IMG/VR virus record: IMGVR_UViG_3300048583_000114 | Location: 1 to 58,070 of that record | Length of the DNA: 58,070 bases | Source: a virus | Reading direction: 5' to 3' (one strand) | Shown here: in pieces, positions 4,776-57,771 of the stretch | Numbering within the stretch: the stretch's first letter is position 1 | Layout: each line of letters opens with the position of its first letter | Made by a program: the position numbers and the translations under genes | The notes under the pieces: model-generated | Seen by the model: the letters and a program-made list of their open reading frames with translations, nothing else | The model's database searches: none | Told to the model about the DNA's origin: nothing

Positions 4776-6839
4776 CTAGGTAGCTGGCCCGGAGACCATC
4801 TGCTGTGCTTCCTGCGCCGGCGTCTGCGGCATCTCGGGCTTGGGCGGCTGGTTCTCCTGCCCCTGCCCCGTCTTCATCCCTTCGAGTTGGCCCTGCATCT
4901 GCTGCATCTGGGCCATGTGCGCCTGAAACTCCTCGACGCTGGGCACGGTGCCCGGCGCGAACTCCAGCCCCTTGGCCAGCTCGTGCAGCACGTTCACCAG
5001 CAGCGTCGGGGGCACCAGCTGCGACTGGATCGCCGGCAGCGCGATCTGCAGAAACTCAAGGCGCCGCTGGTTGAGCAGCTCCTTCAGCAGCAGGCCGCTC
5101 GCGCCCTTGGCTTGGATGAACGCATCGCCCTTGATCGACTCGTCCTCGCCATAGAGCATCAGCGAATAGTAGAGCCGCTCGATCGTCGGCACGATGATGT
5201 CGGTGTCGATGTTGTTGGCGACGTTCTTGATGCCCTTGTTGGCCGCATTCATCAGCATCGACAGGCCGGCCGCGGTCCGCCCCGCGCCCCCCACGTGCTG
5301 GTCGCCCATCATGTAGCGCGGCAGCGACGAGAACTCGTCTGCCAGCACCGAGAACTTGTCGAACACGCCGACCAGCTCGGCCGCGTTGCTGCTGGGCTGG
5401 TAGAACTCCACCGGTGGGCGGGAATCCGCCGACCCGAAGTCGCCGCTCTGCACGACCCACGAGCGCAGCGGGAAAATCTGCCGGATGTCCTCGCCGGCCG
5501 CCATCCGATCCTTGTTGATCATGATCTGCGGGCCGGAGGCGAGCGACATGTTGTTCATCAGCGCCCGCACGGAGGCGTTGCACACGGCCTGCACGTCGCG
5601 CAACTGCTCGCCCAGCCCCACACCCCAGAACGACCCGGGGAGCTTCTCCCAACTCGTCACGCTGTAGGGCACGCGCGCCAGCGGGTCATGGTTCAGCAGC
5701 GCCTTGATTGTGTACGGCCCGACCACCCACACGTTGGCCGGGTATTCGAGGTCCGGGTCCAGCCCCTCGGGGTCCATGCCGAAGTCGATCAGCATCTGCC
5801 CCTGTATCCGCCCCCAGAACTCCAGCGCCTCGATCGTCGGGTGCGGGTCCGCCGAGCCCATGGGCGACTGGTTGCCCAGCGCAGAGGCTTCTGCCGAGTC
5901 GACTGACTGGTAGCTCGACAGCCCGGTCTGGCCGTACTGCGCGAGTGCTGCCCTGATCTGCGCCTCGTCGAACCCCGGAGAGCCGATCATGGAGGCCAAG
6001 TCCCCGCGGGTCAGCTTGTGCCGCTCGATCACGTACGAGTCGGTCACAGTGGCCGCCATCGGCGCCGGGTAGATGTTGAACGGCGACACCCGCTCGAACA
6101 CGTAGGTGAGCTGGTCCTGCACCTGCGGCACAGTCTTGCCCGTGGCCGGGTCGTCGGTCCACTTCACCCGCTTGCGATTCCTCACCACCGGACCCTTCAG
6201 GATGCACGCCTTGAAGGTGGTGATGTCGCTGATGCACTCCTCCAGCGCCGTGTAGAAGTGCCCCTCGACGAGGATGTCATCGACGGCGCGCTCGGCCGCC
6301 TCTGCCTTGTTCTGCGCCTCCTGCCGGGCCGCTTCCTTGGCCTGCTTGAGCAGCTGGGCATGCAACCCCTCCAGCTCGCTGGGGTGCGGCGCCGGCAGCC
6401 CTGCCGCCATGCCCTGTTCCACCATCTGCGCGATCATCTGATCGACTCGCGCGCCCACATCCTGCGGCAGCGACGGCTCCGGCGAGGGCTTGATCGTGAA
6501 CGGCCGCTCGATCTGGAGGTAGATGTCCTTCAGCCACGACTGCGCGCCGCGCATCTTGGTCGCCCCGACACGGCTGTAGATGTCGCTGCCGCCGGGAATC
6601 TGCCGGATGGCTTCCTTGACCTCGGGGTCATACTCGGCGTTGCGCATCCGCAGCGCACGCAGGAGGTCTTCCTCGTGGTGCATCTGCTTGGCCGTGCGAG
6701 CCGCCGAAAAGCACTTCTGCACGTGCATCGCCAAGCCTTGGACGACCGGGTCGGTCGACGGGGACCGAGCGTCCGCCTCGGCCCGCTCCTGCGCAACCAG
6801 CTGGTCGTTACTCAGTACGCGGAGCAGTCCTGCGCTCAT
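4776..6839 (-). CDS. Portal protein
   Basis: A 687-residue protein with the position, length and composition of a podovirus portal, the dodecameric ring at the capsid vertex that takes in and releases DNA. It contains an N-terminal helical part, a long charged helical insertion (residues about 140-190, rich in E, A, Q), a core with SPFNIYPAP and LPGSFWGVGLGEQLRD, and a Gln/Met/Pro-rich C-terminal tail (MAQMQQMQGQLEGM) like the disordered or barrel region of large portals. It lies immediately after the large terminase gene in transcription order, separated by 71 bases containing a promoter-like site. Confidence 0.9.
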   Translation of the reverse strand: MSAGLLRVLSNDQLVAQERAEADARSPSTDPVVQGLAMHVQKCFSAARTAKQMHHEEDLLRALRMRNAEYDPEVKEAIRQIPGGSDIYSRVGATKMRGAQSWLKDIYLQIERPFTIKPSPEPSLPQDVGARVDQMIAQMVEQGMAAGLPAPHPSELEGLHAQLLKQAKEAARQEAQNKAEAAERAVDDILVEGHFYTALEECISDITTFKACILKGPVVRNRKRVKWTDDPATGKTVPQVQDQLTYVFERVSPFNIYPAPMAATVTDSYVIERHKLTRGDLASMIGSPGFDEAQIRAALAQYGQTGLSSYQSVDSAEASALGNQSPMGSADPHPTIEALEFWGRIQGQMLIDFGMDPEGLDPDLEYPANVWVVGPYTIKALLNHDPLARVPYSVTSWEKLPGSFWGVGLGEQLRDVQAVCNASVRALMNNMSLASGPQIMINKDRMAAGEDIRQIFPLRSWVVQSGDFGSADSRPPVEFYQPSSNAAELVGVFDKFSVLADEFSSLPRYMMGDQHVGGAGRTAAGLSMLMNAANKGIKNVANNIDTDIIVPTIERLYYSLMLYGEDESIKGDAFIQAKGASGLLLKELLNQRRLEFLQIALPAIQSQLVPPTLLVNVLHELAKGLEFAPGTVPSVEEFQAHMAQMQQMQGQLEGMKTGQGQENQPPKPEMPQTPAQEAQQMVSGPAT

Positions 6840-6910: not shown

Positions 6911-8305
6911 CTATACAGCCCAGCGACGTGGGACAGGGCGGGGCGTTGGCGCAAACACCCGGGAGTGGCTGGCTGCCGGCCCGAGGAACCACAGGCAGAG
7001 GTACTGGAAGGCGTCGGCGATGTGCGAAGCGTCGTCGGCCTTGTTGGGCTCATCAGCGAGCGTCCCGCCCCGCCGGGTGGCGTACCGGTACTCCCCTGCC
7101 AGCGCGCGGATGAGCCGTGTGCACCGGGGGTCGATCAGCAGCCCCGCCCGCCCGTCGATGGCATTGGCGAGCAGCTTCTCCACGGCCGTCAGCCGGATGC
7201 CGATCCGGTTGCTGCTGGCGGGCTTCACGTCGAACCCGGCCTGCTGGAACACCTTGATGGGTGAAGACTCACTTACCCCCTCGCGGCTCACCGCTGCGGG
7301 GTCGATGATCACCCGCGGCTTCACGCCGCTGAAGTGGGTGGTGATGTAGGGCAGCACGCGGGTCTCGACGAAGCGCTCCATGCCCATGCGATCGTCCGGG
7401 TCGAGCGCGATCTCGCCGAGGATGTGGCGGGTGCCGCGCGGGGTAGTCTGGCCGAACACAGCCCGGGGGGTGAGCCCTGCGTCGACACCCATCACCAGCG
7501 GGTGCGAGTCGCTCCTGACAAATGTCAGATTGTCCTTGGCGACGTGGAAGTCGCGCACGAAGGTGTCCTTGAACACCGGCTGCCCTTCCTTCGACGTGCC
7601 GTACTCGCCGTCGATCATCACCCGGACGTACTCGTCGGAGCGCCCGACGGGGTTGTAGTAGCCGGTGGGCAGGTTCTCGATGTTCTCGGCCTGCGGACTG
7701 CGCCCGGAGGGCTGCTTGAACACGCCCCAGTCGTTGGGGATGTTCTTCTCCATCATGTTGTAGAGCCACGTCCCCACCGCCGGCGGGTTGGTGTCGGCGA
7801 TGATGTACTTGTAGGTCGCCCCCGGCCCCATCTTCTTCGACGGGTAGCGACCGATCCGGCCGGTCATGCCCTCGTAGATGTCCGGGTCGATCTCCCGGAA
7901 CTCGTTGAAGTACGCCCCGGTCACCTCCAGCGACAGCAGCTTGCTCACGTCGTCGGCGTCATCGAGCGCCATGAACATGATCTCGCTGTGCACGTCGTTG
8001 AACGAGAGCACGTACTCCTTGTCGGTGGAGCGCCACTTGCCGAAGATGCCCGGCGGTATCCAGTCAAGGAACGACCGGATGGTGGTCGTCTTCAGCATCG
8101 GCATGGTGTTCCGTACGACCACGAACCGGCTGCGCCGCATGCCGTCGTTGTCCGGCGCCTGCTGCATGGCGGCCATCACGTGGTGGATCAGGCACCCGGA
8201 GGACTTGCCCGAGCCCTGCGGCCCCATGATGACCTTCGTCTCCGACCGGTCGAGCATGAACCGCTTGACCGTCTCCGGTGGCTTGTAGTCGAGCTGGTAG
8301 GCCAT
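6911..8305 (-). CDS. terL: Terminase large subunit (ATPase-nuclease)
   Basis: A 464-residue DNA-packaging motor. The Walker A loop is MGPQGSGKS at residues 27-35. An acidic ATPase segment follows (GAYFNEFREI), in a slightly divergent Walker B form. The C-terminal nuclease domain shows the expected spaced acidic residues in VMGVDAGLTP, VIIDPAA and DDASHIADAF. I chose the ATG at 8305 because it overlaps the TGA of the upstream zinc-ribbon gene (TGATG); a longer in-frame start at 8347 would overlap that gene by 40 bases. It acts with the small terminase (8613-9059) on the portal. Confidence 0.93.
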   Translation of the reverse strand: MAYQLDYKPPETVKRFMLDRSETKVIMGPQGSGKSSGCLIHHVMAAMQQAPDNDGMRRSRFVVVRNTMPMLKTTTIRSFLDWIPPGIFGKWRSTDKEYVLSFNDVHSEIMFMALDDADDVSKLLSLEVTGAYFNEFREIDPDIYEGMTGRIGRYPSKKMGPGATYKYIIADTNPPAVGTWLYNMMEKNIPNDWGVFKQPSGRSPQAENIENLPTGYYNPVGRSDEYVRVMIDGEYGTSKEGQPVFKDTFVRDFHVAKDNLTFVRSDSHPLVMGVDAGLTPRAVFGQTTPRGTRHILGEIALDPDDRMGMERFVETRVLPYITTHFSGVKPRVIIDPAAVSREGVSESSPIKVFQQAGFDVKPASSNRIGIRLTAVEKLLANAIDGRAGLLIDPRCTRLIRALAGEYRYATRRGGTLADEPNKADDASHIADAFQYLCLWFLGPAASHSRVFAPTPRPVPRRWAV

Positions 8306-9536: not shown

Positions 9537-9617
9537 CTAACTATCATTACCCCGCAACAGAGCAACAAGCTAACTATCATCACTGCTCTGAACAGAGGAA
9601 CGCTTGCTAACTATCAT
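9537..9617 (+). repeat. Iteron-like direct repeats, left cluster (3 copies)
   Basis: CTAACTATCAT occurs at 9537-9547, 9570-9580 and 9607-9617, same orientation, 33 and 37 bases apart. The second gap contains CTGAACAGAGGA, a companion motif also seen in the right cluster. Same-strand spacing of about three helical turns fits binding of a replication initiator or regulator. Confidence 0.75.
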
Positions 9618-9726: not shown

Positions 9727-10386
9727 ATGTCCAAGGCAATCAAAGCAATCAACGTGTTCGCTGGCGTGTCGGCAGGCTCGATGGTCAAGGCAGGCGCCGC
9801 GGTCGATGCCGCAGCCGGAACGCTCACGGCGTTGGCAATCAAGGCAGGCGCAGCGATGGCGAAAGCCGCGCCGGTCCTGAACGCCGACACGCCCGATCTG
9901 TCAAAGGCGATCAACGCGCGGGTTCGGTCGTACTTCTCCGTTGAGATCGGCCGGAAAGCGGCCGACGGCGAGGTACCCGGATTGGATAACGCCATCCGGG
10001 CGCTGTCCCGCGCGTTGGTAATCTTCGCATCGGGCGACAAGGTGTCGCCGCATGTCACATTCCGTGAGTTTGTCGCGAAGGCGAAGGACGCCCGGACGGC
10101 ACTCGGCATCGGCCGCAAGGTCGCGGCCGGTAAGACGGCGCCGGATCAGACGTTGACCGGTGAACCCGCATCGCCGACGCTGTCGGAGGCCGCGGATTAC
10201 TTCGCTTCGCTGCGCGAGTCAACACCCGAGGTTCGGACACAAGTCGCAACGTGGCTGCTGCGCCACATGTCGGCCGAGTCGCGTACCGCGCTCCTGCTGT
10301 CGCTTCAGGCGACCCCGGACGGCAAGCCGAAAGGCAAACGCGCGCCGCGCACCGGCAGCAACGCGCCGGAAACCGCGCCGCTGTAG
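9727..10386 (+). CDS. Ala-rich protein flanked by iterons, unknown function
   Basis: A 219-residue protein starting MSKAIKAINVFAGVSAG, with GGAGAC seven bases upstream of the ATG. The N-terminal 50 residues are Ala/Lys-rich and helical; the middle and C-terminal parts are helical (LSEAADYFASLRES, VRTQVATWLLRHM). It ends in a basic, disordered tail (KPKGKRAPRTG). It is the only gene between two iteron clusters and is followed by its own strong terminator, so it forms an isolated transcription unit. A DNA-binding role in replication or partition is inferred from this setting; there is no recognised domain. Confidence 0.8.
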   Translation: MSKAIKAINVFAGVSAGSMVKAGAAVDAAAGTLTALAIKAGAAMAKAAPVLNADTPDLSKAINARVRSYFSVEIGRKAADGEVPGLDNAIRALSRALVIFASGDKVSPHVTFREFVAKAKDARTALGIGRKVAAGKTAPDQTLTGEPASPTLSEAADYFASLRESTPEVRTQVATWLLRHMSAESRTALLLSLQATPDGKPKGKRAPRTGSNAPETAPL

Positions 10387-10436: not shown

Positions 10437-10543
10437 CTAACTATCATTGGTCTGAACAGTAGTGGCTCTAACTATCATTGGTCTGAACAGTAGTGGCTCT
10501 AACTATCATCTCCCCCTAGAACAGAGGACGCGCTAACTATCAT
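10437..10543 (+). repeat. Iteron-like direct repeats, right cluster (4 copies)
   Basis: CTAACTATCAT at 10437-10447, 10468-10478, 10499-10509 and 10533-10543. The first two copies form an exact 31-base tandem unit that also includes TTGGTCTGAACAGTAGTGGCT; the later ones are followed by a looser CTAGAACAGAGGAC. Same orientation as the left cluster at 9537-9617. Confidence 0.8.
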
Positions 10544-10867
10544 CGGCACGCAGCCCGATGACCCGGCGCCGCGCCCTTGGTTGCGCAACCAAGCCGCCTC
10601 GCAAGCCTCGGTGGTCGATGACGTTTGGCCCCGCGTTCTCACTTTGTGCGAACCGCCGCTTCTCACAGTGTGGTTGCGCAACCAGCACAGTCGATGACGT
10701 TGGGCAGGGGTCGACCTAGTCTCCACCCAGCCGCGCGTCGCCCGCTAATGCAACTGAGTTGCGCGGAAAACGGGGCGGGCGTTACCACGCTGCTTGGTGA
10801 CGTTGGGCAGCAAACTGCGTTCCGCCGGTGTTGTGCTTGGTCGGCGGCGCAGTGTCGCCCAGCGGAC

Positions 10868-11198
10868 GTGACATAGTAAATGCGTACCATGGAGCTTCCC
10901 GGCCGCATGGTAATTTATGCCGCAAAAAGCCACTGGTATGGCAGAAAATTACCAGATTTCGTTGTTACTTTACGGGTCCGTCAGCCGGACCGGGAAGAAA
11001 ATTACCAGTACTCTGTTGTATACCATGCAGTGGTATCAGTGGTATCAGCGGTAACTACCGTGGTAGGTACTACACCTGAATCGGTAATTTTCTTCCGGGC
11101 TGGTCAAAAAATAGGCAATTTTGCCCCAAATATTACCATTCTTTGTTGCTGATACCATCGGGATCGGGAAGCTCCATGGTACGCAATTACTATGTTAC
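10868..11198. repeat. 33-bp inverted repeat enclosing an AT-richer segment
   Basis: The left arm 10868-10900 and right arm 11166-11198 match with two mismatches. The inner 20 bases (TGCGTACCATGGAGCTTCCC, 10881-10900) are perfectly complementary to 11166-11185. The 265 bases between hold GGTATCAG direct repeats near 11031-11048 and AGAAAATTACC motifs. It could be an origin structure or a small terminal-inverted-repeat element; I see no target-site duplication. Confidence 0.85.
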
Positions 11199-11431
11199 CA
11201 TTTCGGGGCTTCGACAGATCGACTGAATAATCAATGGCTTAGGAAGGTAACTATTACGACTGATACTAATCTTTTAGGGGCTAATATGCTAATTTTCTTC
11301 CCGCTCGACCAAGTAGGGTCCACATCTCTCGACTTTGTCTTGGGCTTACGGCCGCGAAAAGTAACATGGTAACAGCCGCCGCCGCCCGAAAAGTTGTCGA
11401 CCCTTGTTTTCCCGGCTGGCAGAAAATTACC
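10943..11431. repeat. AGAAAATTACC motifs in both orientations
   Basis: Exact copies at 10943-10953, 10996-11006 and 11421-11431 on plus, one on minus at 11083-11093, and a partial minus copy at 11290-11298. The first two extend to AGAAAATTACCAG. Most are preceded by a CCGG- or GGC-containing stretch. A binding site for a replication or regulatory protein is likely. Confidence 0.7.
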
Positions 11432-11449
11432 ATATTAACACCCCCTGTA

Positions 11450-11477
11450 TTGACATAACTACCCATTGTGGTATAAT
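11450..11477 (+). promoter_or_regulatory. Strong sigma70 promoter P1 (early operon)
   Basis: TTGACA (11450-11455), 16-base spacer, TATAAT (11472-11477), with TG one base upstream of the -10 (extended -10). It shares the block GTATTGACATAAC with promoter P2 at 17231. It reads into a leader of about 110 bases that contains a variant palindrome TTGGTTGCACGCAACCAA (11538-11555) and then the 11598 gene. Confidence 0.88.
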
Positions 11478-11597
11478 ACTAGCTGGGGTAAGAGACACCA
11501 CATTTTCCTCCCCCAAGTTGCTACCACCCCGGCCACCTTGGTTGCACGCAACCAAGCCGCCCCGCTCCCTCTTTTCTTCCCCACACAGGAGTCGATC

Positions 11598-11942
11598 ATG
11601 GGTCGTCCCCGCAAGCCTCAGTCCCCACCACTCGTTCTCACAATGTCGAAACAGCAGCGACGCAGCGTCGCCGCCGTGCAGACCATCGTCAACCAGCCCG
11701 TCGACCCCGTATCCAGTCGCATCCGCCACCTGCACATCGACCATCCCCCCGGCGCGTCCAACCTCTGCTTCATGTGCGCCGCCGACAGCGCCAAGAGTTT
11801 CATGCACATGCTGGCTGGCCCCGCCGAGCAGTTCGCCAGCGGTCGACACCCGCGCGTGACCGTTCGCACCGTTGGTTGCGCAACCAATGGCCGCTCGCTG
11901 TGCTCCAGCTGCGGCCGCCCGCTCGACGCCAGACTGACGTGA
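11598..11942 (+). CDS. Small zinc-binding protein, first gene of operon P1
   Basis: A 114-residue protein, MGRPRKPQSPPL start, basic N-terminus. Two Cys pairs (CFMC and CSSC) with nearby His residues (HLHIDH) predict a zinc ribbon. AGGAG lies about 10 bases upstream of the ATG. The exact palindrome TTGGTTGCGCAACCAA is embedded in its coding sequence at 11872-11887. A DNA- or RNA-binding regulator is possible but not shown. Confidence 0.75.
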   Translation: MGRPRKPQSPPLVLTMSKQQRRSVAAVQTIVNQPVDPVSSRIRHLHIDHPPGASNLCFMCAADSAKSFMHMLAGPAEQFASGRHPRVTVRTVGCATNGRSLCSSCGRPLDARLT

Positions 11943-11963
11943 ACCTGCGCAAGGAGATCGACA

Positions 11964-12266
11964 ATGCCAGTCCCCAGTAGCTACAGGCTGCAACCAGCCG
12001 ACCGGGTGATGCTCGAACGCCTGTTCCTCATGTGCCAGATGGCAGGCCATTACGTGTTTCACCCCCTCGACCGCGAACCGTTCGTGCGCTGCTTCATCCT
12101 CGACTTCGCCCCGAACAGCATCTTCAGCAGTGAACACGTCGACGTGTCCATCTTCAACGGCCATCTGATCGTCGAGCGGGGCGAGGCAATGACCGCCGGA
12201 GATACCGTCGTCCGCGCGCAGAACCTGCTCGCCCCGATGATGTGCGCCCTGCACACCAGCCCCTGA
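11964..12266 (+). CDS. MAG-motif family protein 1
   Basis: A 100-residue protein; LERLFLMCQMAGHYVFHP near residue 25 carries the array motif xMxxMAGxxx, followed by beta-like segments and a C-terminal helix. It is the first member of a tandem series of paralogous modules that runs to 17234. No known family recognised. Confidence 0.8.
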   Translation: MPVPSSYRLQPADRVMLERLFLMCQMAGHYVFHPLDREPFVRCFILDFAPNSIFSSEHVDVSIFNGHLIVERGEAMTAGDTVVRAQNLLAPMMCALHTSP

Positions 12267-12314
12267 CCCAGTAACACCCTTCACCCACGCTGCACCACCA
12301 CAGGAGACTTGACC

Positions 12315-12458
12315 ATGCGCTTCGCCATCACCCTGTTCCTGCTCGCCCTGCTCTCCGCCGGCGGCACCCACATCGCCCTCCAGTTCGCCGACCACCTGAT
12401 CGGCTACACGCTGGCCCAGCACACCATTGATCGCGCAACCAGTGGGATGCGGCCATGA
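12315..12458 (+). CDS. Small membrane or exported protein (47 aa)
   Basis: MRFAITLFLLALLSAGG: a charged start, then a hydrophobic stretch of about 14 residues, so a signal peptide or single membrane anchor. AGGAG is 8-9 bases upstream. The TGA overlaps the ATG of the next gene (ATGA). Not a MAG-motif member. Confidence 0.65.
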   Translation: MRFAITLFLLALLSAGGTHIALQFADHLIGYTLAQHTIDRATSGMRP

Positions 12459-12766
12459 CCATCCCCGAACAGATGCGCCACGTGGCAAACATGCTGCGCA
12501 TGGCCGGGCTGGAGGTCGCCTGCGCGGAGCTATCCTTCGAGTCGCTGAACGACATACCTGACGAGAGGCCGGCCGAGAAGGCGCGGCTGTGGGTCTACCC
12601 CAAGGGCGACAGCTTCATCGGCTCCGCGACGGTGTGGTTCTATGCCAATCGACCCGTGCGGGTATCGGACGGAGCCAGCCAGCGCAGCGCGCGCACGCTT
12701 GTCGACGTTGTCGTCGGCATCTTCAACGCATCGACCTATGGAGCACACGGCCATGCCCACCCCTGA
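12455..12766 (+). CDS. MAG-motif family protein 2
   Basis: A 103-residue protein starting MTIPEQMRHVANMLRMAGL. The motif NMLRMAGLEV is at residues 12-21, followed by a beta-rich middle (ARLWVYPKG, ATVWFYAN) and a C-terminal hydrophobic helix. Starts within the stop of the 47-residue gene. Confidence 0.85.
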   Translation: MTIPEQMRHVANMLRMAGLEVACAELSFESLNDIPDERPAEKARLWVYPKGDSFIGSATVWFYANRPVRVSDGASQRSARTLVDVVVGIFNASTYGAHGHAHP

Positions 12767-13361
12767 CCACAACACCCCCGCCCACCACATGCGCATCCGC
12801 GCCCTCAAGGAGATCATCCGTCGACCGTACGACGGTCTCTATCATCGGCGCTTGCTGATGGCCGACGGCGCACTGATGTGCCCGGAGTGCGCATACGACA
12901 ACTACAAGCCGATCCTGCAGGCTTGCGCGCAGAGCGCCTACGGCACCCGCAACGACTGGCTGTGCGAGGAACACATCGTCACCGACACGTCTCACTGGCA
13001 CGGCCGCGACGACACCGGTGAGAATTTTCCCTGCTGCGTGCAATGCCAAGAACTGCTGCCGGCCAACTACACCGCGGCGCAGCGGCAGCGGGACTGGTCG
13101 CTGAACGCACGGCTGTACGACATGCTGGTCATGGCCGGCAAGGACGAACGACTGGGCAGCAACGCTCGCAAGTACCGGTCGATCGTCTACTTCGACATGG
13201 ACCCGCGCAGTAGCGACTCGACGGACTTGGTCACGGTCGCCATGGTCAAGGGCACGCTGCGCTACCTGCATGTCCACTGGTCGGTCGCCCCCGCCGTGCA
13301 TGCCCTGATCGAACCCATGGTCGCAGCACTGGTTGCGCAACCAGAGGAGACACAGCCATGA
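12753..13361 (+). CDS. Cys-rich zinc domain fused to a MAG-motif module
   Basis: A 202-residue protein. The N-terminal half has clustered Cys and His (CPEC, CAQS, CEEH, CCVQC), predicting one or two zinc-binding modules. The C-terminal half reads LYDMLVMAGKDE and then the beta-beta-alpha pattern of the array proteins (RSIVYFDMD, LRYLHVHW, LIEPMVAALV). Start chosen at 12753 (GGAG 10 bases upstream) rather than the upstream in-frame ATG at 12642, which would sit deep inside the previous gene. Its end contains an exact TGGTTGCGCAACCA at 13330. Confidence 0.8.
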   Translation: MPTPDHNTPAHHMRIRALKEIIRRPYDGLYHRRLLMADGALMCPECAYDNYKPILQACAQSAYGTRNDWLCEEHIVTDTSHWHGRDDTGENFPCCVQCQELLPANYTAAQRQRDWSLNARLYDMLVMAGKDERLGSNARKYRSIVYFDMDPRSSDSTDLVTVAMVKGTLRYLHVHWSVAPAVHALIEPMVAALVAQPEETQP

Positions 13362-13471
13362 CCTTCGACGAGATGGATCGCTGCATTAAGCGCCTGCAGA
13401 CCGTGCAGCGCATGGTCGCCCAGCTGCGGGCCGAGGATGCTGCCAACGACAACGAGGAGACCCAGTCATGA
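13358..13471 (+). CDS. Micro-ORF (37 aa), helical
   Basis: MTFDEMDRCIKRLQTVQRMV, a single predicted amphipathic helix with an acidic tail. It overlaps both neighbours by four bases (ATGA at each end) and has GGAG upstream, which supports translation. Confidence 0.6.
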   Translation: MTFDEMDRCIKRLQTVQRMVAQLRAEDAANDNEETQS

Positions 13472-14100
13472 CCAACATCGACATCTGCGAACGCATCAAG
13501 GACATCTGCACCATGGCCGGCGTCCCGGTCGAGTACGCCAAGCCGGACTGGCACTACACGCAGGTGCCACGCTTGGGAGAGGACTGCCGTGCGTTCTTCC
13601 AGATCGACAACAAGGGACGGCTGTACGTGGCCGTGGATCACGAAGACCCCGCGGTGCGCTCACTGGTGGAGAATGCCTACCAGCTGGTGACCTCCAGCGT
13701 GACGAGCTTTACTATCATCGAGCCGGAGCCGCCGCATGTGCCATCCGCAGATGCGCGCAGCCGGACTGACGGGGGCCTGTCCCTACTGCTGTCCGACCAG
13801 TGGGGCAGCGAGATGCCCCGCGGGTTCGTCACCCAGATCGACCTGCGCACCTTCTGGGGCATTCGCCCGACGGACGTGGCCATCTGCTCGCAGCCGGACC
13901 ACCCGCACGTGTGGGACGCATGGCAAGACATCGTCGACCGCGCCATCCACCGGGTGAACATCGACGGGCAGACGTACGACTTCTACCTGTACGAGAACGG
14001 CAACCTTTGGCTGGCGTGCAACAAGCTGCTCACGGCAGAAGAACGTCGCTCGCTCTACGATGATTGCGCAACCAGCGAGTACGACGAGGAGGACGCATGA
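13468..14100 (+). CDS. MAG-motif protein with extra C-terminal domain
   Basis: A 210-residue protein. Residues 1-75 carry the module: IKDICTMAGVPVEY, a beta middle and a helix (SLVENAYQLV). A linker follows (EPEPPHVPSADARSR), then a second domain of about 110 residues with GGLSLLLSDQWGSEMPRG and YDFYLYENGNLWLA. No known family. It overlaps the previous and next genes by 4 bases. Confidence 0.82.
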   Translation: MTNIDICERIKDICTMAGVPVEYAKPDWHYTQVPRLGEDCRAFFQIDNKGRLYVAVDHEDPAVRSLVENAYQLVTSSVTSFTIIEPEPPHVPSADARSRTDGGLSLLLSDQWGSEMPRGFVTQIDLRTFWGIRPTDVAICSQPDHPHVWDAWQDIVDRAIHRVNIDGQTYDFYLYENGNLWLACNKLLTAEERRSLYDDCATSEYDEEDA

Positions 14101-14483
14101 ACCCGTTGGATGAAATAGACAAGCAGGCCGATGTGATCCGGCGCGCTGCCGACATGATGTGCATGGCCGGGTTGTTCCCGTCTGTGGGAGGCACGGACTA
14201 CCCGAACAAGCTGTCGAGTGAGGTGCTGGCGAGGCGCGGCAACCTGTGGGTCAGGGAACGGCGCGAGGACTTAATCACGGAGTCGTACACCGTGATGTTC
14301 GACTTCCACTCGCGGTCGATCTCCGTGCGCAAGGACGGCGCCAGCGGGCAGTACACGGAACAGCTGCGGGCGGGCCATGTGCGGTTCGCCGTGCACGACA
14401 CTGCCATCTACTCAAAGGGTAACGACGAAGCGCTGCGGCACATGGTCCACGAGGCGCACCGGCTGATTAGGGAGGAATCATGA
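14097..14483 (+). CDS. MAG-motif family protein 4
   Basis: A 128-residue protein, MNPLDEIDKQADVIRRAADM start; motif ADMMCMAGLFPS near residue 23, then NLWVRERR, two further beta segments and a C-terminal helix ending HRLIREES. The ATG lies within the previous stop. The REES ending recurs in its neighbours and encodes the next gene's ribosome binding site (GGAGGAATC). Confidence 0.85.
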   Translation: MNPLDEIDKQADVIRRAADMMCMAGLFPSVGGTDYPNKLSSEVLARRGNLWVRERREDLITESYTVMFDFHSRSISVRKDGASGQYTEQLRAGHVRFAVHDTAIYSKGNDEALRHMVHEAHRLIREES

Positions 14484-14764
14484 CGACACCGATGAAGATC
14501 GTGCGCCTGCGACGCGATGCGGCCGCGTTGCTGGAGCAAGCAGGGACAATGCTGAATTTGGCTGGCATGCAAACTTCCTTCTATCCCTCGGTACCTGCGT
14601 TGTGGGTCCGCGCTGGAGATGACGATGGCGCCCTTGGCGGGCTACGAGTCGGGATTATCCATAGCAGAGGGGAGATCAGGTTCACTTTCTCAACCGACTG
14701 TGACGAGAAAGTTGCTGCGGTGGCTCGCTTGGTTGTAAAGCAACTGCGCAAGGAGGAATCATGA
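14480..14764 (+). CDS. MAG-motif family protein 5
   Basis: A 94-residue protein with motif GTMLNLAGMQTSFY, then ALWVRAGDD, a beta hairpin (GGLRVGIIHSRGEIRFTF) and C-terminal helix VARLVVKQLRKEES. It shows the alpha-beta-beta-beta-alpha layout of the array well. Four-base overlaps on both sides. Confidence 0.85.
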   Translation: MTTPMKIVRLRRDAAALLEQAGTMLNLAGMQTSFYPSVPALWVRAGDDDGALGGLRVGIIHSRGEIRFTFSTDCDEKVAAVARLVVKQLRKEES

Positions 14765-15018
14765 CCCTTCACAAAGCCCAGCAGCGGGAGCTGCTGACCC
14801 GGCTGTACGCCATGTGCACCATGGCTGGGTATGGTTGCCGACTGGTGCCGGCGCTGCCTTCGTTGTGGGTGGCAGGCCGCGTGCGGGTAGACGTGCAACG
14901 CTCCGGCAAGCTACTCACATACCCGGTCGGATTGTTCGACGACGAGCCGGAGGAAGCCATCAAGATCATCGCGCTCGTCAAGGCGTCGTACGAACAACTG
15001 CGCAAGGAGTTCCCATGA
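14761..15018 (+). CDS. MAG-motif family protein 6
   Basis: An 85-residue protein, LLTRLYAMCTMAGYGCRL followed by SLWVAGRVRVDVQRSGK and the C-terminal helix YEQLRKEFP. Its C-terminus closely parallels the previous paralogue (QLRKEES), consistent with tandem duplication and divergence. Confidence 0.87.
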   Translation: MTLHKAQQRELLTRLYAMCTMAGYGCRLVPALPSLWVAGRVRVDVQRSGKLLTYPVGLFDDEPEEAIKIIALVKASYEQLRKEFP

Positions 15019-15305
15019 GGAAGCCTCCGCTCAAGGCCGCGCAACGACGCGCCATCCTGCACCGGCTGGTCTCCATGTACACCATGGCGGGGTACGACTG
15101 CGACACCGCCGACTCGTGCTACCTCGCGTGGGTTCGCCAGCGAGGCAGTACCTCACTCGACAGCTTGTTCGAGGGCGTGCGGCTGGAGGTCACCCGCGTC
15201 GGCAACGTGCAGAGTGAGGTGCACTTCGCGCGGGAGTTCCATGTGAAGGTGCTGGAGATGCTACGCGTGGCCGCGCCGATGATCTACAAGGAGGTGGTGG
15301 CATGA
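15015..15305 (+). CDS. MAG-motif family protein 7
   Basis: A 96-residue protein, ILHRLVSMYTMAGYDCDT then a beta-rich middle (GVRLEVTRVGNVQSEVHF) and a terminal helix. Its MYTMAGYDC closely matches the MCTMAGYGC of protein 6. Four-base overlaps with both neighbours. Confidence 0.87.
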   Translation: MRKPPLKAAQRRAILHRLVSMYTMAGYDCDTADSCYLAWVRQRGSTSLDSLFEGVRLEVTRVGNVQSEVHFAREFHVKVLEMLRVAAPMIYKEVVA

Positions 15306-15562
15306 GTGCCAAGCTACTGACGGACCGACTGGCGATGGTTGCGCAATCAGCGGGGTTCGAGCTGGAGTATCTGCCGCTGGTCGAGTCCCAGATCGAGTGC
15401 CCGCAGCTGATCATCAACAATCCGCGCAACGAGTATGAGTGGGTCTCCGTCTACATCGAAGATGGCGCGGGCAACCTGCGCGTGTTTTCATCTGTCGAGG
15501 GTATTTCGCTGCGGCATTGGACCCAGACGACTATCACCGCGCTGATGAAGGAGGAGACATGA
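15302..15562 (+). CDS. MAG-motif family protein 8 (degenerate motif)
   Basis: An 86-residue protein. The motif position reads AMVAQSAGFELEY (SAG instead of MAG), then QLIINNP, WVSVYIEDGAGNLRVF and a C-terminal helix with KEET. A one-mismatch copy of the dispersed palindrome (15336-15349) lies over the motif itself, which may explain the residue change. Confidence 0.82.
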   Translation: MSAKLLTDRLAMVAQSAGFELEYLPLVESQIECPQLIINNPRNEYEWVSVYIEDGAGNLRVFSSVEGISLRHWTQTTITALMKEET

Positions 15563-15837
15563 TCGCATCGTGGCAGGAACTGACCGACCGCGTGAAGCTC
15601 GCACTGGAGATGGCCGGATACGTGGTCGAGCACGCCCCGTATTCCGACTCGAAGCTGTACGTGTGCCCGCCTAGCTGGGATCGCACTGGGCGGTGGATAC
15701 CCGTGTGGGTAGGGGCATTCCCGGAGGTTTCCTCGTGTGGCGACAACGACCCTGACGCGGCCGTGCTGCGGCAGCTGGTCACCGACATCTACCGGCACCT
15801 GTTGGAGGAGACATGTGTTCACGAATACAGGCTTTAG
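15559..15837 (+). CDS. MAG-motif family protein 9
   Basis: A 92-residue protein with VKLALEMAGYVVEHAPY, then KLYVCPPSW, a beta segment (IPVWVGAF) and the helix LRQLVTDIYRHLLEE. It overlaps the next gene by 25 bases, longer than other junctions; the expected helix end (HLLEET) is reached before this overlap, so the last residues are an extension. Confidence 0.83.
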   Translation: MIASWQELTDRVKLALEMAGYVVEHAPYSDSKLYVCPPSWDRTGRWIPVWVGAFPEVSSCGDNDPDAAVLRQLVTDIYRHLLEETCVHEYRL

Positions 15838-16073
15838 CCGAGCGGCTGCAGGACATGGCCAAGCTGGCGGGGCATGCCACCACGCTCCTTCCCGAGTCGG
15901 CATCGTCTTGGCCTGTGCTGATCGTTCGTGATGTGGTCGTTCGCAGGCAGCTGGCGAGGGCCATCGTGAACGACGACATGAACGAGCTGTCGCTGGACAC
16001 CAGCGGCGATGAAGCGATCTGCATATGGCTGCGCATGGTGTTCGACCAGCTCGTCGCACAGGAGGGGAGATGA
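15813..16073 (+). CDS. MAG-motif family protein 10
   Basis: An 86-residue protein, LAERLQDMAKLAGHATTLLP (LAG variant), then WPVLIVRDVVV and the C-terminal helix MVFDQLVAQEGR. The GGAGGAGACATG context before the start gives a good ribosome binding site inside the previous gene. Confidence 0.83.
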   Translation: MCSRIQALAERLQDMAKLAGHATTLLPESASSWPVLIVRDVVVRRQLARAIVNDDMNELSLDTSGDEAICIWLRMVFDQLVAQEGR

Positions 16074-16333
16074 AACCCACAGAGCGAACCGAGCGCGTGG
16101 CAGACATGCTGCGCATGGCAGGCTACGGCGTGCGCGTGTCGCCCGGACTCAGTAGCAACCGACTGGTGGTGCGCATTCCGGTGATGGAGTCGAGTCTGGA
16201 GGTGGCCGTGTGGATCGACAGCCCGGAGCCCTACATCAGCTTCTTGGCTGATGTCCTGCCCGACAACCACGGCCCCCGGCTGCGCTCGTTGGTCGAGGAA
16301 TGCTGTCGACAACTGGCGGAGGAGAGATCATGA
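16070..16333 (+). CDS. MAG-motif family protein 11
   Basis: An 87-residue protein, ERVADMLRMAGYGVRVSPG, then RLVVRIPVMESSLEVAVWI and the helix LVEECCRQLAEERS. It shares ADMLRMAGYGV with the consensus and closely resembles protein 2 (ANMLRMAGLEV). Confidence 0.87.
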   Translation: MKPTERTERVADMLRMAGYGVRVSPGLSSNRLVVRIPVMESSLEVAVWIDSPEPYISFLADVLPDNHGPRLRSLVEECCRQLAEERS

Positions 16334-16575
16334 CCCAGAACGAGTTTGCCGAGCGGCTGGCCTTGGTGCTGGTCATGGCGGGGTATGCGATCGACCGGGT
16401 AGGTGCGACGCTCTACTGGAGGTACTGGAGGACTAGCGAGCGGGCCATAGGGAGCCTGCGATCATGGACAGTCAAGATCAGCATCACACCAGCTGGGGAG
16501 GCCGTCATGGACCGCGCAAACGCTGCCGATCCGCTGCCGATCCGCTGCCGATCGAGTTCGTCACCTTGGTATTGA
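16330..16575 (+). CDS. MAG-motif family protein 12, C-terminus frame-shifted by an 11-bp repeat
   Basis: An 81-residue protein with ALVLVMAGYAIDRV at the motif. After residue 62 the frame runs through three perfect tandem copies of CGCTGCCGATC (16521-16553) and ends in an atypical CRSSSSPWY. With two copies instead of three, the frame would continue EFVTLVLNTAAALREEA and stop at 16622, which restores the helix seen in all siblings. So this copy looks like an off-state of a length-variable tract, a recent mutation, or an assembly error. Confidence 0.75.
   Translation: MTQNEFAERLALVLVMAGYAIDRVGATLYWRYWRTSERAIGSLRSWTVKISITPAGEAVMDRANAADPLPIRCRSSSSPWY
16521..16553. repeat. Tandem 11-bp repeat x3 (CGCTGCCGATC) inside a MAG-motif gene
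   Basis: Three perfect copies at 16521-16531, 16532-16542 and 16543-16553. The unit is not a multiple of three, so copy number sets the reading frame of the 16330 gene. Slipped-strand change by one unit toggles between the short form and a family-typical C-terminus. Confidence 0.9.
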
Positions 16576-16635
16576 ACACAGCGGCTGCGCTTAGGGAGGA
16601 AGCATGGGCGACAAAGAACTGACGAAGGAGGGACA

Positions 16636-16905
16636 ATGAACAAGGCGCAGAGTGCGGCGCACGTGGCCCGCATAGACCGCATGGCGACCGTGCTGCAGAT
16701 GGCGGGGTACCGCGTGCAGCGGGTGAAGTGGAAGCTGTTTGTGAACCTGCCAACGACTGAGCTGGCCTTCGTGCCGTTCACGGTGTACCCAGATCAGGTA
16801 GTGGGCAGCTTCGGCCACTTATCCCGCGCTGTGCGCGACGAGGGAGCGGCTGTGATGAAGCTACTAGCGGAAGCTTTCGAGCTGACGAAGGAGAAGGCGC
16901 AATGA
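16636..16905 (+). CDS. MAG-motif family protein 13
   Basis: An 89-residue protein, MATVLQMAGYRVQRVKWKLF, then the beta segment LAFVPFTVYPDQVVGSF and the helix MKLLAEAFELTKEKAQ. Strong ribosome binding site AAGGAGGG upstream. The gap from 16576 would vanish if the 16330 frame were restored (stop at 16622), keeping the tight packing of the array. Confidence 0.86.
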   Translation: MNKAQSAAHVARIDRMATVLQMAGYRVQRVKWKLFVNLPTTELAFVPFTVYPDQVVGSFGHLSRAVRDEGAAVMKLLAEAFELTKEKAQ

Positions 16906-17234
16906 GCACCGAGGTACTGCATCTAAAGCACTCGCTATCATCCGACGACGCGCGGGCGCTGCTGGAGCGCGCCGAGATGCAGTGCAGGATGGCCGGCATG
17001 CACACCCGGCTCACGTTGCGGATCACCGAGGGCTTGCACGGGATGCTGCTGGCCAGCCTGACCAACGAGGAGGTGAACGACCGGACCCAGTCCGTGGTCG
17101 ACTGCGCGCTGCTGCTGATCGCCGGCGACGAGCTGGCTACTGCCCACAACTCGTCCGAGGAGGCGTCCGCCGAGGTACTCAACACCATCGTGCAGTCCCT
17201 GCTCACAACCTATACAACACAGGAGGTGTATTGA
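16902..17234 (+). CDS. MAG-motif family protein 14, last of the array
   Basis: A 110-residue protein with ERAEMQCRMAGMHTRLTLRI (one extra residue in the motif), a beta hairpin and the C-terminal helix VLNTIVQSLLTTY. Its stop codon overlaps the -35 box of promoter P2, marking the end of the array. Confidence 0.85.
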   Translation: MSTEVLHLKHSLSSDDARALLERAEMQCRMAGMHTRLTLRITEGLHGMLLASLTNEEVNDRTQSVVDCALLLIAGDELATAHNSSEEASAEVLNTIVQSLLTTYTTQEVY

Positions 17235-17258
17235 CATAACAACCTAGCAGAGTATAAT
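17231..17258 (+). promoter_or_regulatory. Strong sigma70 promoter P2 (MoxR operon)
   Basis: TTGACA (17231-17236), 16-base spacer, TATAAT (17253-17258). It shares GTATTGACATAAC with P1 at 11450. The leader of about 95 bases carries an exact TGGTTGCGCAACCA (17308-17321) about 50 bases after the -10, matching the layout of the P1 leader. Confidence 0.9.
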
Positions 17259-17358: not shown

Positions 17359-18420
17359 ATGGCAAGCAAAGAGAACGCCGCAGTGTCCGGGTCGTCGATC
17401 GGGTTCAAGGATGCAGTCGAGCTGATCGCCGGCCTCGCCCGCCACGATGTGCGGCACGTCGTGTACCTCGAAGGTGCTCCGGGCGACGGCAAGACGGCAG
17501 CTGCTGTCGAGGCTGCCTACGAGATGGGCTTCGAGTCCGACGAGATCATGCTGGTGCGGCCGTCGCTGCACGAGTCGGTCGACTACAGCGGGGCACTGTT
17601 CGTCGAGCAGGGCACGGCGCGCTGGGCGCCCATGGAGCTGATGAAGCGCATGACCGAGAAGCGCGCCTTCGTGGTCATCGACGAGATGGCCGACGCTCCT
17701 GTGATGACGCAGAACGTCATGTGCGGCGTCGTGTACGACCGGATGCTGTCCGGGCTGGTGTTCCATCCCGAGACCGTGTTCGTGCTCACCGGCAACCGCA
17801 CGATCGACCGCAGCGGCGCCAACCGGGTGGTGACCAAGCTGTACAACCGGGTGTGCCTGCGCACCTTCGTCGCGAACGTCGATGACTGGAGCACGTGGGC
17901 AGACGCGCAGGAGGGGTTCGTGCCGTGGGTGTCGGCGTTCCACCGGTACAACCGGGGCGAGTACTTCAGCAAGTTCGACCCGGCCGAGCGGCAGTCCCCC
18001 ACGCCGCGCCAGTGGGAGAAGGTCGCCATCCTGCCCGATGAGCTGCCGGCGAAAATCCACATGCACGCGGTCTGCGGGTACGTGGGTGACGCCGCGGCGG
18101 CCGCCTACGGTGCCTTCCGGGCGCACAAGGCGAGCCTGCCGACCCGCGAGGAGGTCGAGAAGTCGCCGGACACCGCCACCCTCCCCGCGGGGCTGGATGC
18201 GCAGTGGGCCGTGGCTGCGGCTGTCGCGCAGTGGCTAGGCGCGAAGAACGCCGCCAAGCTCGCCGAGTACATCGTCCGGCTGCCGAAAGACCTGCAGATG
18301 ATGATCTGGACCAGCGCCCCGCGCCGCCCCGGCAACGAGACGCTGATCACCCACGAGGCGTGGCTCAAGGCGACCTGTGCGCTCAGCGGGTCGTTGCAGA
18401 AAGCCAAGGCCGGCAAGTAG
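17359..18420 (+). CDS. MoxR-type AAA+ ATPase
   Basis: A 353-residue protein. Walker A is GAPGDGKT (K45) and Walker B is AFVVIDEM (D108). The sensor-like FVLTGNRT follows, with a MoxR-like helical C-terminal part. ATG at 17359 chosen for AAGGAG upstream; the frame is open further upstream, but that would run through the promoter leader. With the next two genes it forms a MoxR ATPase, DUF3150-like, metallopeptidase/VWA set. In such systems the ATPase typically remodels a target recruited through the VWA partner. The phage target is unknown. Confidence 0.88.
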   Translation: MASKENAAVSGSSIGFKDAVELIAGLARHDVRHVVYLEGAPGDGKTAAAVEAAYEMGFESDEIMLVRPSLHESVDYSGALFVEQGTARWAPMELMKRMTEKRAFVVIDEMADAPVMTQNVMCGVVYDRMLSGLVFHPETVFVLTGNRTIDRSGANRVVTKLYNRVCLRTFVANVDDWSTWADAQEGFVPWVSAFHRYNRGEYFSKFDPAERQSPTPRQWEKVAILPDELPAKIHMHAVCGYVGDAAAAAYGAFRAHKASLPTREEVEKSPDTATLPAGLDAQWAVAAAVAQWLGAKNAAKLAEYIVRLPKDLQMMIWTSAPRRPGNETLITHEAWLKATCALSGSLQKAKAGK

Positions 18421-18439
18421 TTCCAGTGCTTCACCGGGC

Positions 18440-18453
18440 TGGTTGCGCAACCA
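18440..18453. promoter_or_regulatory. Exact palindrome TGGTTGCGCAACCA between MoxR and DUF3150-like genes
   Basis: One of the dispersed palindromes, in the 66-base gap before the 18487 gene. See the repeat entry at 9624 for the full set. Confidence 0.8.
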
Positions 18454-18486
18454 GTCCCCCACCATCCTTTACTTCTGGAGAATGCA

Positions 18487-19329
18487 ATGACCAACGAAAT
18501 GCAACTTCCCCTGTCCCGCAAGGCCGTGCTGGTTCGCTGCAAGCTGTCGCTGCTCAACGTGTATGTGGGAGACGCCAAGGTGACCCACGAGGTCGACCAG
18601 CAGAACGGCGTGCACGGCGCCGGGCGCTACTCCAAGCGGCTGTTCAAGGGCTGCAAGCCGGTCGAGGACGCGCTGTCCGCCTACCGCGAGGTCTACGCCT
18701 ATGTCCGCAAGGCCACCGTGCCGTGGGACACCGGCTACGGGCTGCTGCCGTCGGCCAAGCTGCTGGAGTTCGGCGCGAAGTTCGGCTCGCTCAAGGCGAC
18801 CGCCCAGTCGCTGCGCGACGCGCTGGTCCCGCAGTGGGACGCGCTGGTTGCCGCCGACATCGCTCGCCTCGGGCCGCTGGGTTCCGAGTCCGACTACCCC
18901 GCCAGCCCGGTGGGCCGGTTCGACGTGTCGTACCTGATGACGCCCGTGCCGGAGGAGGGTGACTTCCGCGTCACCATGACCGATCTGGACCGTGCGGCGT
19001 TCCGCGAGGCGCTGAAGGATGCCGAGGACACGGTCGTGACCAACCTGCGGGAGTCGCTGCTGGAGCCCCTCAAGAAGGCCGTGCAGACACTCGGCGTGCC
19101 GGACGGGGAGAAGGGTGGCAAGTTCCACGACACGCTCATCACGAACATCGTGGAGGCCGCGCAGCGTGCTCTGGACCTGAACCTGACCGGCGACCCGCAG
19201 GTCGAGACGCTGGCCAAGGAGGCGCTGGCCGTGGCCGCGCCGTTCGCCGATGCGGTCGACGTGGTTCGCCGGGTGCCCTCCGTCCGCCAGTCGGTGCGGG
19301 GCAAGCTGTCCAACATCTGCGCGATGTAA
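18487..19329 (+). CDS. DUF3150-like protein (MoxR/VWA partner)
   Basis: A 280-residue protein with GRYSKRLFKG and VRKATVPWDTGYGLLP, typical of phage DUF3150-like proteins. Helical segments follow, with TDLDRAAFREALKDAEDT in the middle. Sandwiched between the MoxR ATPase and the VWA metallopeptidase, which is the usual neighbourhood. Probably a structural or adaptor partner; no catalytic motif seen. Confidence 0.75.
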   Translation: MTNEMQLPLSRKAVLVRCKLSLLNVYVGDAKVTHEVDQQNGVHGAGRYSKRLFKGCKPVEDALSAYREVYAYVRKATVPWDTGYGLLPSAKLLEFGAKFGSLKATAQSLRDALVPQWDALVAADIARLGPLGSESDYPASPVGRFDVSYLMTPVPEEGDFRVTMTDLDRAAFREALKDAEDTVVTNLRESLLEPLKKAVQTLGVPDGEKGGKFHDTLITNIVEAAQRALDLNLTGDPQVETLAKEALAVAAPFADAVDVVRRVPSVRQSVRGKLSNICAM

Positions 19330-19339
19330 GGAGACTGAC

Positions 19340-20512
19340 ATGAGCTTGGATCAAACCATGGAGGACGCCCGCCTGCTGCTGGCGTTCGATCACCCGTTCT
19401 TCTCGGCGCTGTTCGCCGGGAGCAAGGTGCAACTCGTCGACGATCTGGAAGCCGTCATCGGCATGCCGGCCCCGGCCTGCTGCACGACCCGCAACCGGCT
19501 GATGTTCTGCCGCAAGCGGCTGGCCACCGCGACGGCCCCGGCGGTGATGTTCGTCACCGGGCACGAGGCGCTGCACGCAGCGCTTCACCACACCCAGTCG
19601 CATGTGGCAGATGCCCGGCCCGACGCCCGGCTGCGCAACATGGCCATGGACTTCGTCATCAACGATATGCTGATCGACTGCGGGCTCAAGATGCCGGAGG
19701 GTGAGCTGCGCGGGCTGCATCGCCCGGGCAAGGAAGACCGGCTCAAGTCGTGGATCGAGGTCTACGACGAGCTGGAGCAGAGCGGCGAGGGTGGCAAGGG
19801 GGGCGGTGCCGGCGACAAGTTCATCGACTTGGTGTCCGACCCGGACGGCGACCCGTCCCCGGCCGAGCGTGACCAGATCGAGATGGAGGCCAAGGTCACG
19901 CTGGCCACGGCTGCCAAGCTGGCGCAGGATGTGGGCAAGGTGCCGGCGTCGCTCAAGCGCATGGTCGACGAGGCGCTCAACCCCAAGCTGCCGTGGTGGG
20001 CGATTCTGGAGCCGTTCATGACCGGGTTGATGAAGCAGGAGGTGTCGTGGTCCCGCCCGCATCGGCGCTACCTGTGGCAGGGCATCTACCTGCCCTCGGC
20101 GATCGACGAGCCGCGGCTGTCCCACGTCGGGCTGGTGATCGACACCAGCGGATCGATCGGGGCTGCGGAGCTGGGTCTGTACCAGACCCAGATCAACCGC
20201 ATCTTCGAGACCTGCCGCCCGGCCAAGGTCACGGTCGTATACGCCGATGCGCGGGTCAACCACGTCGACACGTTCGAGGATGATGATTTCCCCGTGCAGC
20301 TCAGCCCGCATGGCGGGGGCGGCACCGACTTCCGGCCGGCCGTCCGGTGGTTCGAGGCGGAGGGCGAGCCGCCCGAGGTCGTCGTGTACCTGACTGACGG
20401 CTACGGTAACTTCCCCGAGCGGGCGCCGTCGTTCCCGATGGTATGGTGCATCACAACCAACGTAGTTGCCCCACACGGCGTAACCATCCACACTGACCTG
20501 AAAGGAGCGTGA
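19340..20512 (+). CDS. Metallopeptidase-like/VWA protein (DUF2201-like)
   Basis: A 390-residue protein. The N-terminal domain holds a zincin-like motif GHEALHAALHH (H75, E76, H79) and a conserved MAMDFVINDMLID. The C-terminal VWA domain shows the MIDAS loop VIDTSGSIG (D268), GGGGTDF and VVYLTDGYGNFP. A Gly/Asp-rich linker lies between (GEGGKGGGAGDKF). It is the third gene of the MoxR set; the VWA part probably recruits substrates to the ATPase. Whether the peptidase site is active cannot be told from sequence alone. Confidence 0.87.
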   Translation: MSLDQTMEDARLLLAFDHPFFSALFAGSKVQLVDDLEAVIGMPAPACCTTRNRLMFCRKRLATATAPAVMFVTGHEALHAALHHTQSHVADARPDARLRNMAMDFVINDMLIDCGLKMPEGELRGLHRPGKEDRLKSWIEVYDELEQSGEGGKGGGAGDKFIDLVSDPDGDPSPAERDQIEMEAKVTLATAAKLAQDVGKVPASLKRMVDEALNPKLPWWAILEPFMTGLMKQEVSWSRPHRRYLWQGIYLPSAIDEPRLSHVGLVIDTSGSIGAAELGLYQTQINRIFETCRPAKVTVVYADARVNHVDTFEDDDFPVQLSPHGGGGTDFRPAVRWFEAEGEPPEVVVYLTDGYGNFPERAPSFPMVWCITTNVVAPHGVTIHTDLKGA

Positions 20513-21765: not shown

Positions 21766-22014
21766 ATGAGCGGTGACCCGAAGCCGGCGGTTGTCGTCCG
21801 CAAGTGCGTCGACTGCGGCAACGTGCAGCGTGTCCGGTCAGCAGCATCCCGGTGGAATGATGACGGAACGGCGGCGTACTATTTCGGCAGTGCGTACGAC
21901 TTCTGCAACAAGTGCGACGGGTCGATGGAGACTGTCGCCGATACGAAAGGACACGATGAGCAAACTCACGGAAACCCCGCGGCTGCGCAAGGAAGTGACC
22001 CGCGTCCTCAATGA
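21766..22014 (+). CDS. Zinc-ribbon protein (82 aa)
   Basis: KCVDCGNVQRVRS and FCNKCDGS supply two Cys pairs separated by about 35 residues, a classic zinc ribbon. The ribosome binding site AAGGAGA directly abuts the palindrome at 21741. Its end overlaps the next gene by 59 bases in another frame. Confidence 0.7.
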   Translation: MSGDPKPAVVVRKCVDCGNVQRVRSAASRWNDDGTAAYYFGSAYDFCNKCDGSMETVADTKGHDEQTHGNPAAAQGSDPRPQ

Positions 22015-22135
22015 CCTGCGTACGGCGCACACGCAGGTGCAACTGGCAGGCTACGCTGGCGATGCGGCGGACCTGCGCACCATGATCGACATCATCATCG
22101 CAGCGGTCGAGTGGGAAGACGGCCGCGAACCCTGA
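21956..22135 (+). CDS. Small helical protein (59 aa)
   Basis: MSKLTETPRLRKEVTRVLND and an acidic C-terminus (AAVEWEDGREP). Preceded by AAAGGA; overlaps the end of the zinc-ribbon gene in a different frame, so one of the two ends may be shorter in reality. Confidence 0.6.
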   Translation: MSKLTETPRLRKEVTRVLNDLRTAHTQVQLAGYAGDAADLRTMIDIIIAAVEWEDGREP

Positions 22136-57423: not shown

Positions 57424-57770
57424 TCCGCGTCCTGCTCCGGCGCCAGATCACCCCGACGCACGCCACTCAGTTCATCGAGCCAGTACAGCAGCTCGTCATC
57501 GCTGCGCGTATCCGCCACGCCGTCGTCGATGATCGCCTTCAGCAGTTCGTAGGTACGCTGGATGGCGGTCCGCTCGGGGCCGGTCTCCGGCAGCGCAGCC
57601 AGCCGGGCGTCGATCAGCTCGTGGCACTTCGCATCGTCGTACCAGCCGTGACCGTCGTCGAGAAGTTGGTCGCCGAACCCCCTGAGTTCCGCGTTGATAG
57701 CGGCCCGCAGGACGGCTGAATCGCCGATGGCCGCGAGTTCATCCTTGGTGAGCGCGTGAATGCGAGCCAT
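57420..57770 (-). CDS. Small protein of unknown function, complete right-end copy (116 aa)
   Basis: MARIHALTKDELAAIGDSAV start; acidic end (LSGVRRGDLAPEQDAE). Start 57770 chosen rather than the longer frame from 57830, which overlaps the DUF1501 gene. Full-length form of the partial copy at 1-303; lies between DUF1501 and the holin candidates. Confidence 0.78.
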   Translation of the reverse strand: MARIHALTKDELAAIGDSAVLRAAINAELRGFGDQLLDDGHGWYDDAKCHELIDARLAALPETGPERTAIQRTYELLKAIIDDGVADTRSDDELLYWLDELSGVRRGDLAPEQDAE

Positions 57771-57771
57771 G

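Follow-up and report, generated by a model that had tools for sequence, protein, structure and literature searches.

An unusual tandem expansion of an undescribed small-protein family in a podovirus-like tailed phage

A phage genome held as an IMG/VR virus record (58,070 bases, 65% GC; the whole record is the window analysed here) carries a long run of small genes, each with a short MAG motif near the end of its N-terminal helix. Do these genes descend from a single ancestor, and what would a phage do with so many versions of one protein? The carrier is a tailed phage whose gene content resembles that of podoviruses. Gene calling together with PHROGs and Pfam matches placed the portal gene at 4776-6839 and the terminase gene at 6911-8305, and a second structural block occupies the minus strand from 36335 to the right end and includes the major head protein (54463-55383). 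The replication half, on the plus strand, encodes a MoxR-type ATPase (17359), a DUF2201 metallopeptidase/VWA protein (19340), a PolA-like polymerase (22639), a helicase (29753) and a primase (32878). The MAG array lies between the structural genes and these MoxR/VWA and replication genes. The closest sequenced phages found were Pseudomonas phage Rollin and Rhizobium phages of the RHph_TM3_14A type, with 25-40% protein identity; the closest IMG/VR contig found has a portal that is 56% identical. Scans of the 58,070-base window for tRNAs and Rfam families returned no matches. The ends of the record (1-603 and 57468-58070) form a 603-base direct repeat with 91% identity, ungapped and with 52 mismatches, which is either a diverged terminal duplication or an assembly join of two strains.

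The initial annotation had placed the array between two strong promoters. The window's only two perfect sigma70 matches (0.00 expected), at 11450 and 17231, do border it, and the genes between them are tightly packed: 11 of 16 junctions are 4-base ATGA overlaps, two more overlap further (25 and 29 bases), and at another two the genes stand 48 and 60 bases apart. These flanking promoters and ATGA junctions indicate that the array is one unit. As in an early host-takeover operon, a strong host-type promoter, judged by its consensus match, precedes an operon of small genes. The features, all on the plus strand, are as follows (evidence in brackets).

11450..11477, +, perfect sigma70 promoter upstream of the array, TTGACA-16-TATAAT (12/12 consensus match)
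11598..11942, +, 114-aa gene, the first behind the promoter, two CxxC pairs, non-MAG (read from the sequence; no Pfam match)
11964..12266, +, MAG member 1, MCQMAGH (profiles; AlphaFold2 model abbbba, pLDDT 79.9)
12315..12458, +, hydrophobic 47-aa ORF inside the array, non-MAG (gene call)
12455..12766, +, MAG member 2, MLRMAGL (profiles; closest to 14097, Z 10)
12738..13361, +, Cys-rich domain (CPEC, CCVQC) plus MAG member 3, MLVMAGK (profile match at 13068-13343)
13358..13471, +, 37-aa ORF inside the array, non-MAG (gene call)
13468..14100, +, MAG member 4, ICTMAGV, plus a phrog_21544-like C-terminal domain (profiles)
14097..14483, +, MAG member 5, MMCMAGL, with an insertion (profiles, masked test, shuffle Z)
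14480..14764, +, MAG member 6, MLNLAGM (profiles, shuffle Z)
14761..15018, +, MAG member 7, MCTMAGY (profiles, shuffle Z; AlphaFold2 model abbbba, pLDDT 92.2)
15015..15305, +, MAG member 8, MYTMAGY (profiles; closest to 14761, Z 13.3)
15302..15562, +, MAG member 9, VAQSAGF (profiles, shuffle Z)
15559..15837, +, MAG member 10, ALEMAGY, running past the usual ATGA junction (profiles; closest to 16070, Z 13.3)
15813..16073, +, MAG member 11, MAKLAGH (profiles, shuffle Z)
16070..16333, +, MAG member 12, MLRMAGY (profiles, shuffle Z)
16330..16575, +, MAG member 13, VLVMAGY, frame lost before the C-terminal helix (profiles)
16636..16905, +, MAG member 14, VLQMAGY (profiles, shuffle Z)
16902..17234, +, MAG member 15, QCRMAGM (profiles, shuffle Z)
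17231..17258, +, second perfect sigma70 promoter, following the array and leading into the MoxR ATPase operon

All fifteen motifs that had been listed from the sequence fall in real gene calls, in the order named. Two of the modules are indeed embedded in larger proteins, as had been described for genes at 12753 and 13468, but the Cys-rich one is called from an ATG at 12738. The C-terminal half of 13468-14100 matches phrog_21544 (function unknown) with an E of 2e-7, and this fused domain has weak relatives in jumbo Erwinia/Serratia phages (E 0.02). A shorter call of the 114-aa gene, from 11643, has a weak coding score. At the ATGA junctions a strong Shine-Dalgarno sequence lies within the end of the upstream gene. 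This sequence, AAGGAGGA, encodes K-E-E or R-E-E, and outside the array, coupled genes from other families likewise tend toward KE-type ends; the (R/K)EE ending, once taken as a family signature, is therefore a by-product of translational coupling, the downstream gene's Shine-Dalgarno before the ATGA stop/start, and not a feature of the proteins. The junction at 15813 has ATGT in place of the usual ATGA, and the upstream protein (15559) extends some residues further.

Several other sequence elements occur around the array. The palindrome GGTTGCGCAACC is present at 14 sites within 10579-41540 (at most one mismatch, 0.3 expected), several of them intergenic; one copy lies about 50 bases past the 17231 promoter, and the 11450 promoter is followed at about 60 bases by a variant, GGTTGCACGCAACC. 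It is possibly an operator or an RNA hairpin. Upstream, CTAACTATCAT occurs in seven exact copies (0.07 expected) in two clusters, 9537-9617 and 10437-10543, which surround a 219-aa gene at 9727-10386; these repeats are iteron-like and may mark a replication origin. A perfect 20-base inverted repeat (GCGTACCATGGAGCTTCCCG; 10882-10901 and 11165-11184) encloses an AT-rich stretch in the gene-poor zone ahead of the array. Downstream, the next operon (17359-20512) encodes the MoxR-type ATPase, an unassigned 280-aa protein and the DUF2201 metallopeptidase/VWA protein, and one relative seems, from start sequences only, to have a comparable set, ordered differently.

To what extent, then, are the fifteen modules (11964-17234) one family? 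Their N-terminal helix has in common the pattern R-x(6)-(M/L/S)AG, the motif reaching back in 13 of 15 members to an Arg seven residues ahead of the M of MAG. When each module was scored by an HMM built from the others against 2515 ORFs, 14 of the 15 outscored every non-member, which bears out the paralogy that had been proposed; the exception was the weakest member, the module in 12738-13361. Shuffle Z values exceeded 4 in 23 of 105 array pairs versus 0.7% of 406 control pairs drawn from small genes of the same genome. Searched with a profile, the genome yielded exactly 15 places, all inside the array; as the profile was built from those same 15, the informative part is that no others appeared. 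The only similar near-start string in gene calls outside the array, QVQLAGY at 21956-22135, was not matched by the profile. When linked small proteins were counted without supervision over 82 sequences (the window plus 81 related loci), this genome ranked second, with 11 linked genes against a median of 0; the sole sequence ahead of it was RHph_TM3_14A.

A sceptical reading would be that the MAG segment is the sole similarity. With the seven residues of MxxMAGY masked, likeness nevertheless persisted in 10 of 15 modules, for which at most 5 of about 1500 decoys scored equally; it was not significant for 11964, 12455, 12738, 16330 and 16902, whose membership depends chiefly on the motif and helix 1. 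Together, the results indicate that all fifteen modules descend from one ancestor, and that the expansion is genuine and out of the ordinary, in a family of small proteins new to the databases searched. BLAST at an E of 1e-4 missed array pairs, and arrays as diverged as this one escape ordinary BLAST.

The strongest pairs are often adjacent genes (14761/15015, 14480/14761, 15302/15559) and similarity shows a weak relation to tandem distance (Mantel r -0.18, p 0.04), both of which point to a tandem origin. Frequent tandem duplication under weak selection could even account for most of the array, leaving one or two useful members. Such a by-product would fit the weak constraint outside the core, the member that is frameshifted and the one that reads beyond its usual stop. 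We consider this quite unlikely, since each of the 15 frames stays open through most of the fold and has a Shine-Dalgarno site and a positive coding score, and copies so diverged usually decay in a compact genome. The frameshifted copy, member 13 (16330), contains at 16522-16555 three tandem copies of an 11-bp unit, CGCTGCCGATC, to which we attribute its going out of frame near the end; its C-terminal helix is still readable in another frame. The repeat is slip-prone, and this may be a decayed or switchable copy, or the frame change may be a sequencing error.

A shared alpha-beta-beta-beta-alpha (abbba) fold had been proposed for the modules. With an alignment of the fifteen paralogues as input, AlphaFold2 predicted a compact helix-four strands-helix domain for 14761 (pLDDT 92.2, pTM 0.80). 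It returned the same element order for 11964 (pLDDT 79.9), a member without support outside the motif, although both models drew on one alignment, which biases them toward a common result, and the second is not fully independent. Structure prediction thus gave a common element order in the two members modelled, with a fold that has one strand more than proposed: DSSP assigned H-E-E-E-E-H (abbbba) in both. A HicA/dsRBD-like (abbba) reading was rejected on account of the four strands. In the models, the MAG motif falls where helix 1 ends and the chain turns toward strand 1; as modelled, it is a scaffold turn between these elements and not an active site.

Foldseek found nothing significant for either model (E above 0.1 throughout). 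Its weak retrievals for both were KA1/AMPK-alpha C-terminal domains (6e4u with TMq 0.60 for 14761; 5wi2 with TM 0.50/0.53 for 11964) and phosphoglucomutase-type enzymes, and the weak matches for 14761 included archaeal TA0095 (2joi) and MTH677 (1pu1). KA1 domains have abbbba topology, the KA1/AMPK-alpha C-terminal domains combining two helices with a four-stranded sheet as the MAG models do. Given E values above 0.1, this likeness is a simple resemblance of topology and not membership, and a sequence relation was not found: profile searches of Pfam and PDB sequences gave no relevant match.

Residue conservation bears more directly on what the proteins might do. In the alignment only the A and G are invariant; polar residues never are, the best being the Arg at 13 of 15, which argues against an enzyme family. 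Net charge at pH 7 ranges from -9 to +4 among members, which argues against one common nucleic-acid-binding role. Each member could instead be a small nucleic-acid-binding regulator of the phage's own genes with its own site, as small early proteins, a weak Foldseek resemblance to Sm-like proteins and several dispersed genomic palindromes might suggest. That is very unlikely, given that many members are acidic (down to -9), that there is neither a conserved basic patch nor an invariant basic residue, and that the palindromes are one sequence and not fifteen. The lack of invariant polar residues and the spread of charges point to a binding scaffold with re-used surfaces.

The search for relatives agreed with the earlier statement that the motif belongs to no named family: Pfam, PHROGs, NCBIfam, PADLOC and PDB sequences held no MAG homologue. 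No stand-alone member matched a PHROG at E≤0.1, and the two fusions did so through their other halves only. PADLOC assigned 0 families to all 15, a silence that says little since its library consists of defence and not counter-defence proteins. Neither tblastn of all 15 proteins against 50,697 phages (E≤10) nor blastn with the array DNA yielded a homologue. Relatives identified through terminase, DNA polymerase and portal, the array comparison that had been called for, were without a MAG module. The MAG profile found no homologue in 38 records (36 IMG/VR contigs, many of them fragments, plus Rollin and RHph_TM3_14A), a set that may lack records very near the window and in which the reach to distant relatives is uncalibrated; the same profile finds 15 of 15 in its own genome, so the search works. 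Two DNA patterns of the motif retrieved 7 and 89 stretches from IMG/VR with zero MAG homologues, the best profile E being 0.012, in a 698-aa protein. A bacterial-genome match to the C-terminal part of one member (53% over about 30 residues) was dismissed as chance, as the profile did not match the locus. A literature search did not find such an array described.

These comparisons also bear on whether the members are subunits of one hetero-oligomer, such as a ring, a filament or a regulator of the neighbouring MoxR/VWA machine, with coupling keeping their proportions. A single ATGA-coupled transcript, a common fold with a conserved helix-1 face, and MoxR and VWA genes directly after the array would all suit such an assembly. 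It is unlikely, however: MoxR and VWA are kept in relatives that have no MAG proteins, the MoxR operon has its own promoter, lengths and net charges vary widely among members, and one has lost the frame of its C-terminal helix.

Among the related loci compared, only RHph_TM3_14A (MN988472) has a comparable array. It encodes about 10 small paralogues with the motif xARAMLLGxxY at 10651-14024 and also at 22760 and 26508, with no convincing PHROG match (best E 0.02). Like the MAG array, this AMLLG array lies between terminase and MoxR ATPase, and each member has a short conserved N-terminal motif, but the motif differs and profile similarity is lacking (hhalign probability 0.1%, E 0.73). Homology of the two is thus unsupported, and from their sequences they look like separate expansions.

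In the view we favour, the MAG array encodes diversified binding proteins without enzymatic activity and is expressed early as one operon, a takeover or counter-defence battery with a different host target for each member; we give this view an even chance of being right. The promoters, the coupled small genes, the genome position and the binding-scaffold argument make it the likeliest role. We counted in its favour the distant relative's unrelated small-paralogue array at the same position, and against it the lack of a match between any member and the counter-defence or takeover proteins known so far. The battery would have arisen as one scaffold was duplicated again and again. Host RNA polymerase would transcribe it from the 11450 sigma70 promoter, presumably early, to judge from the promoter consensus, and ATGA-coupled translation would give the fifteen proteins, all descended from one small ancestor; each would be a single abbbba domain, with two of them fused to other domains. 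Surfaces and net charges have diverged almost completely on the one scaffold, perhaps under diversifying selection. We infer that members bind proteins and that their targets are distinct, each occupying a different host component of defence, nuclease, transcription or toxin-antitoxin function.

A bolder proposal, possible but doubtful, is that a single unseen abbbba scaffold gave rise to a 15-member inhibitor battery on one transcript, and that a distant relative independently built an equivalent at the same locus. The place behind the terminase block would then serve generally as a location where multi-target batteries evolve.

One main source of new proteins for counter-defence and takeover is clusters of small early genes, which are usually read as unrelated mixtures. 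Fifteen members of one fold, with no relatives in the databases, would show that phages can also build such sets from one scaffold, and an operon as compact as this (5.3 kb) makes member-by-member cloning and screening feasible. In the early region of T7 and the host-takeover module of SPO1, small genes are likewise clustered behind strong promoters of the host type and encode mostly unrelated proteins. The MAG array resembles them in its small genes and its strong host-type promoter; it differs in that its role is predicted and in that its fifteen members are built on one fold.
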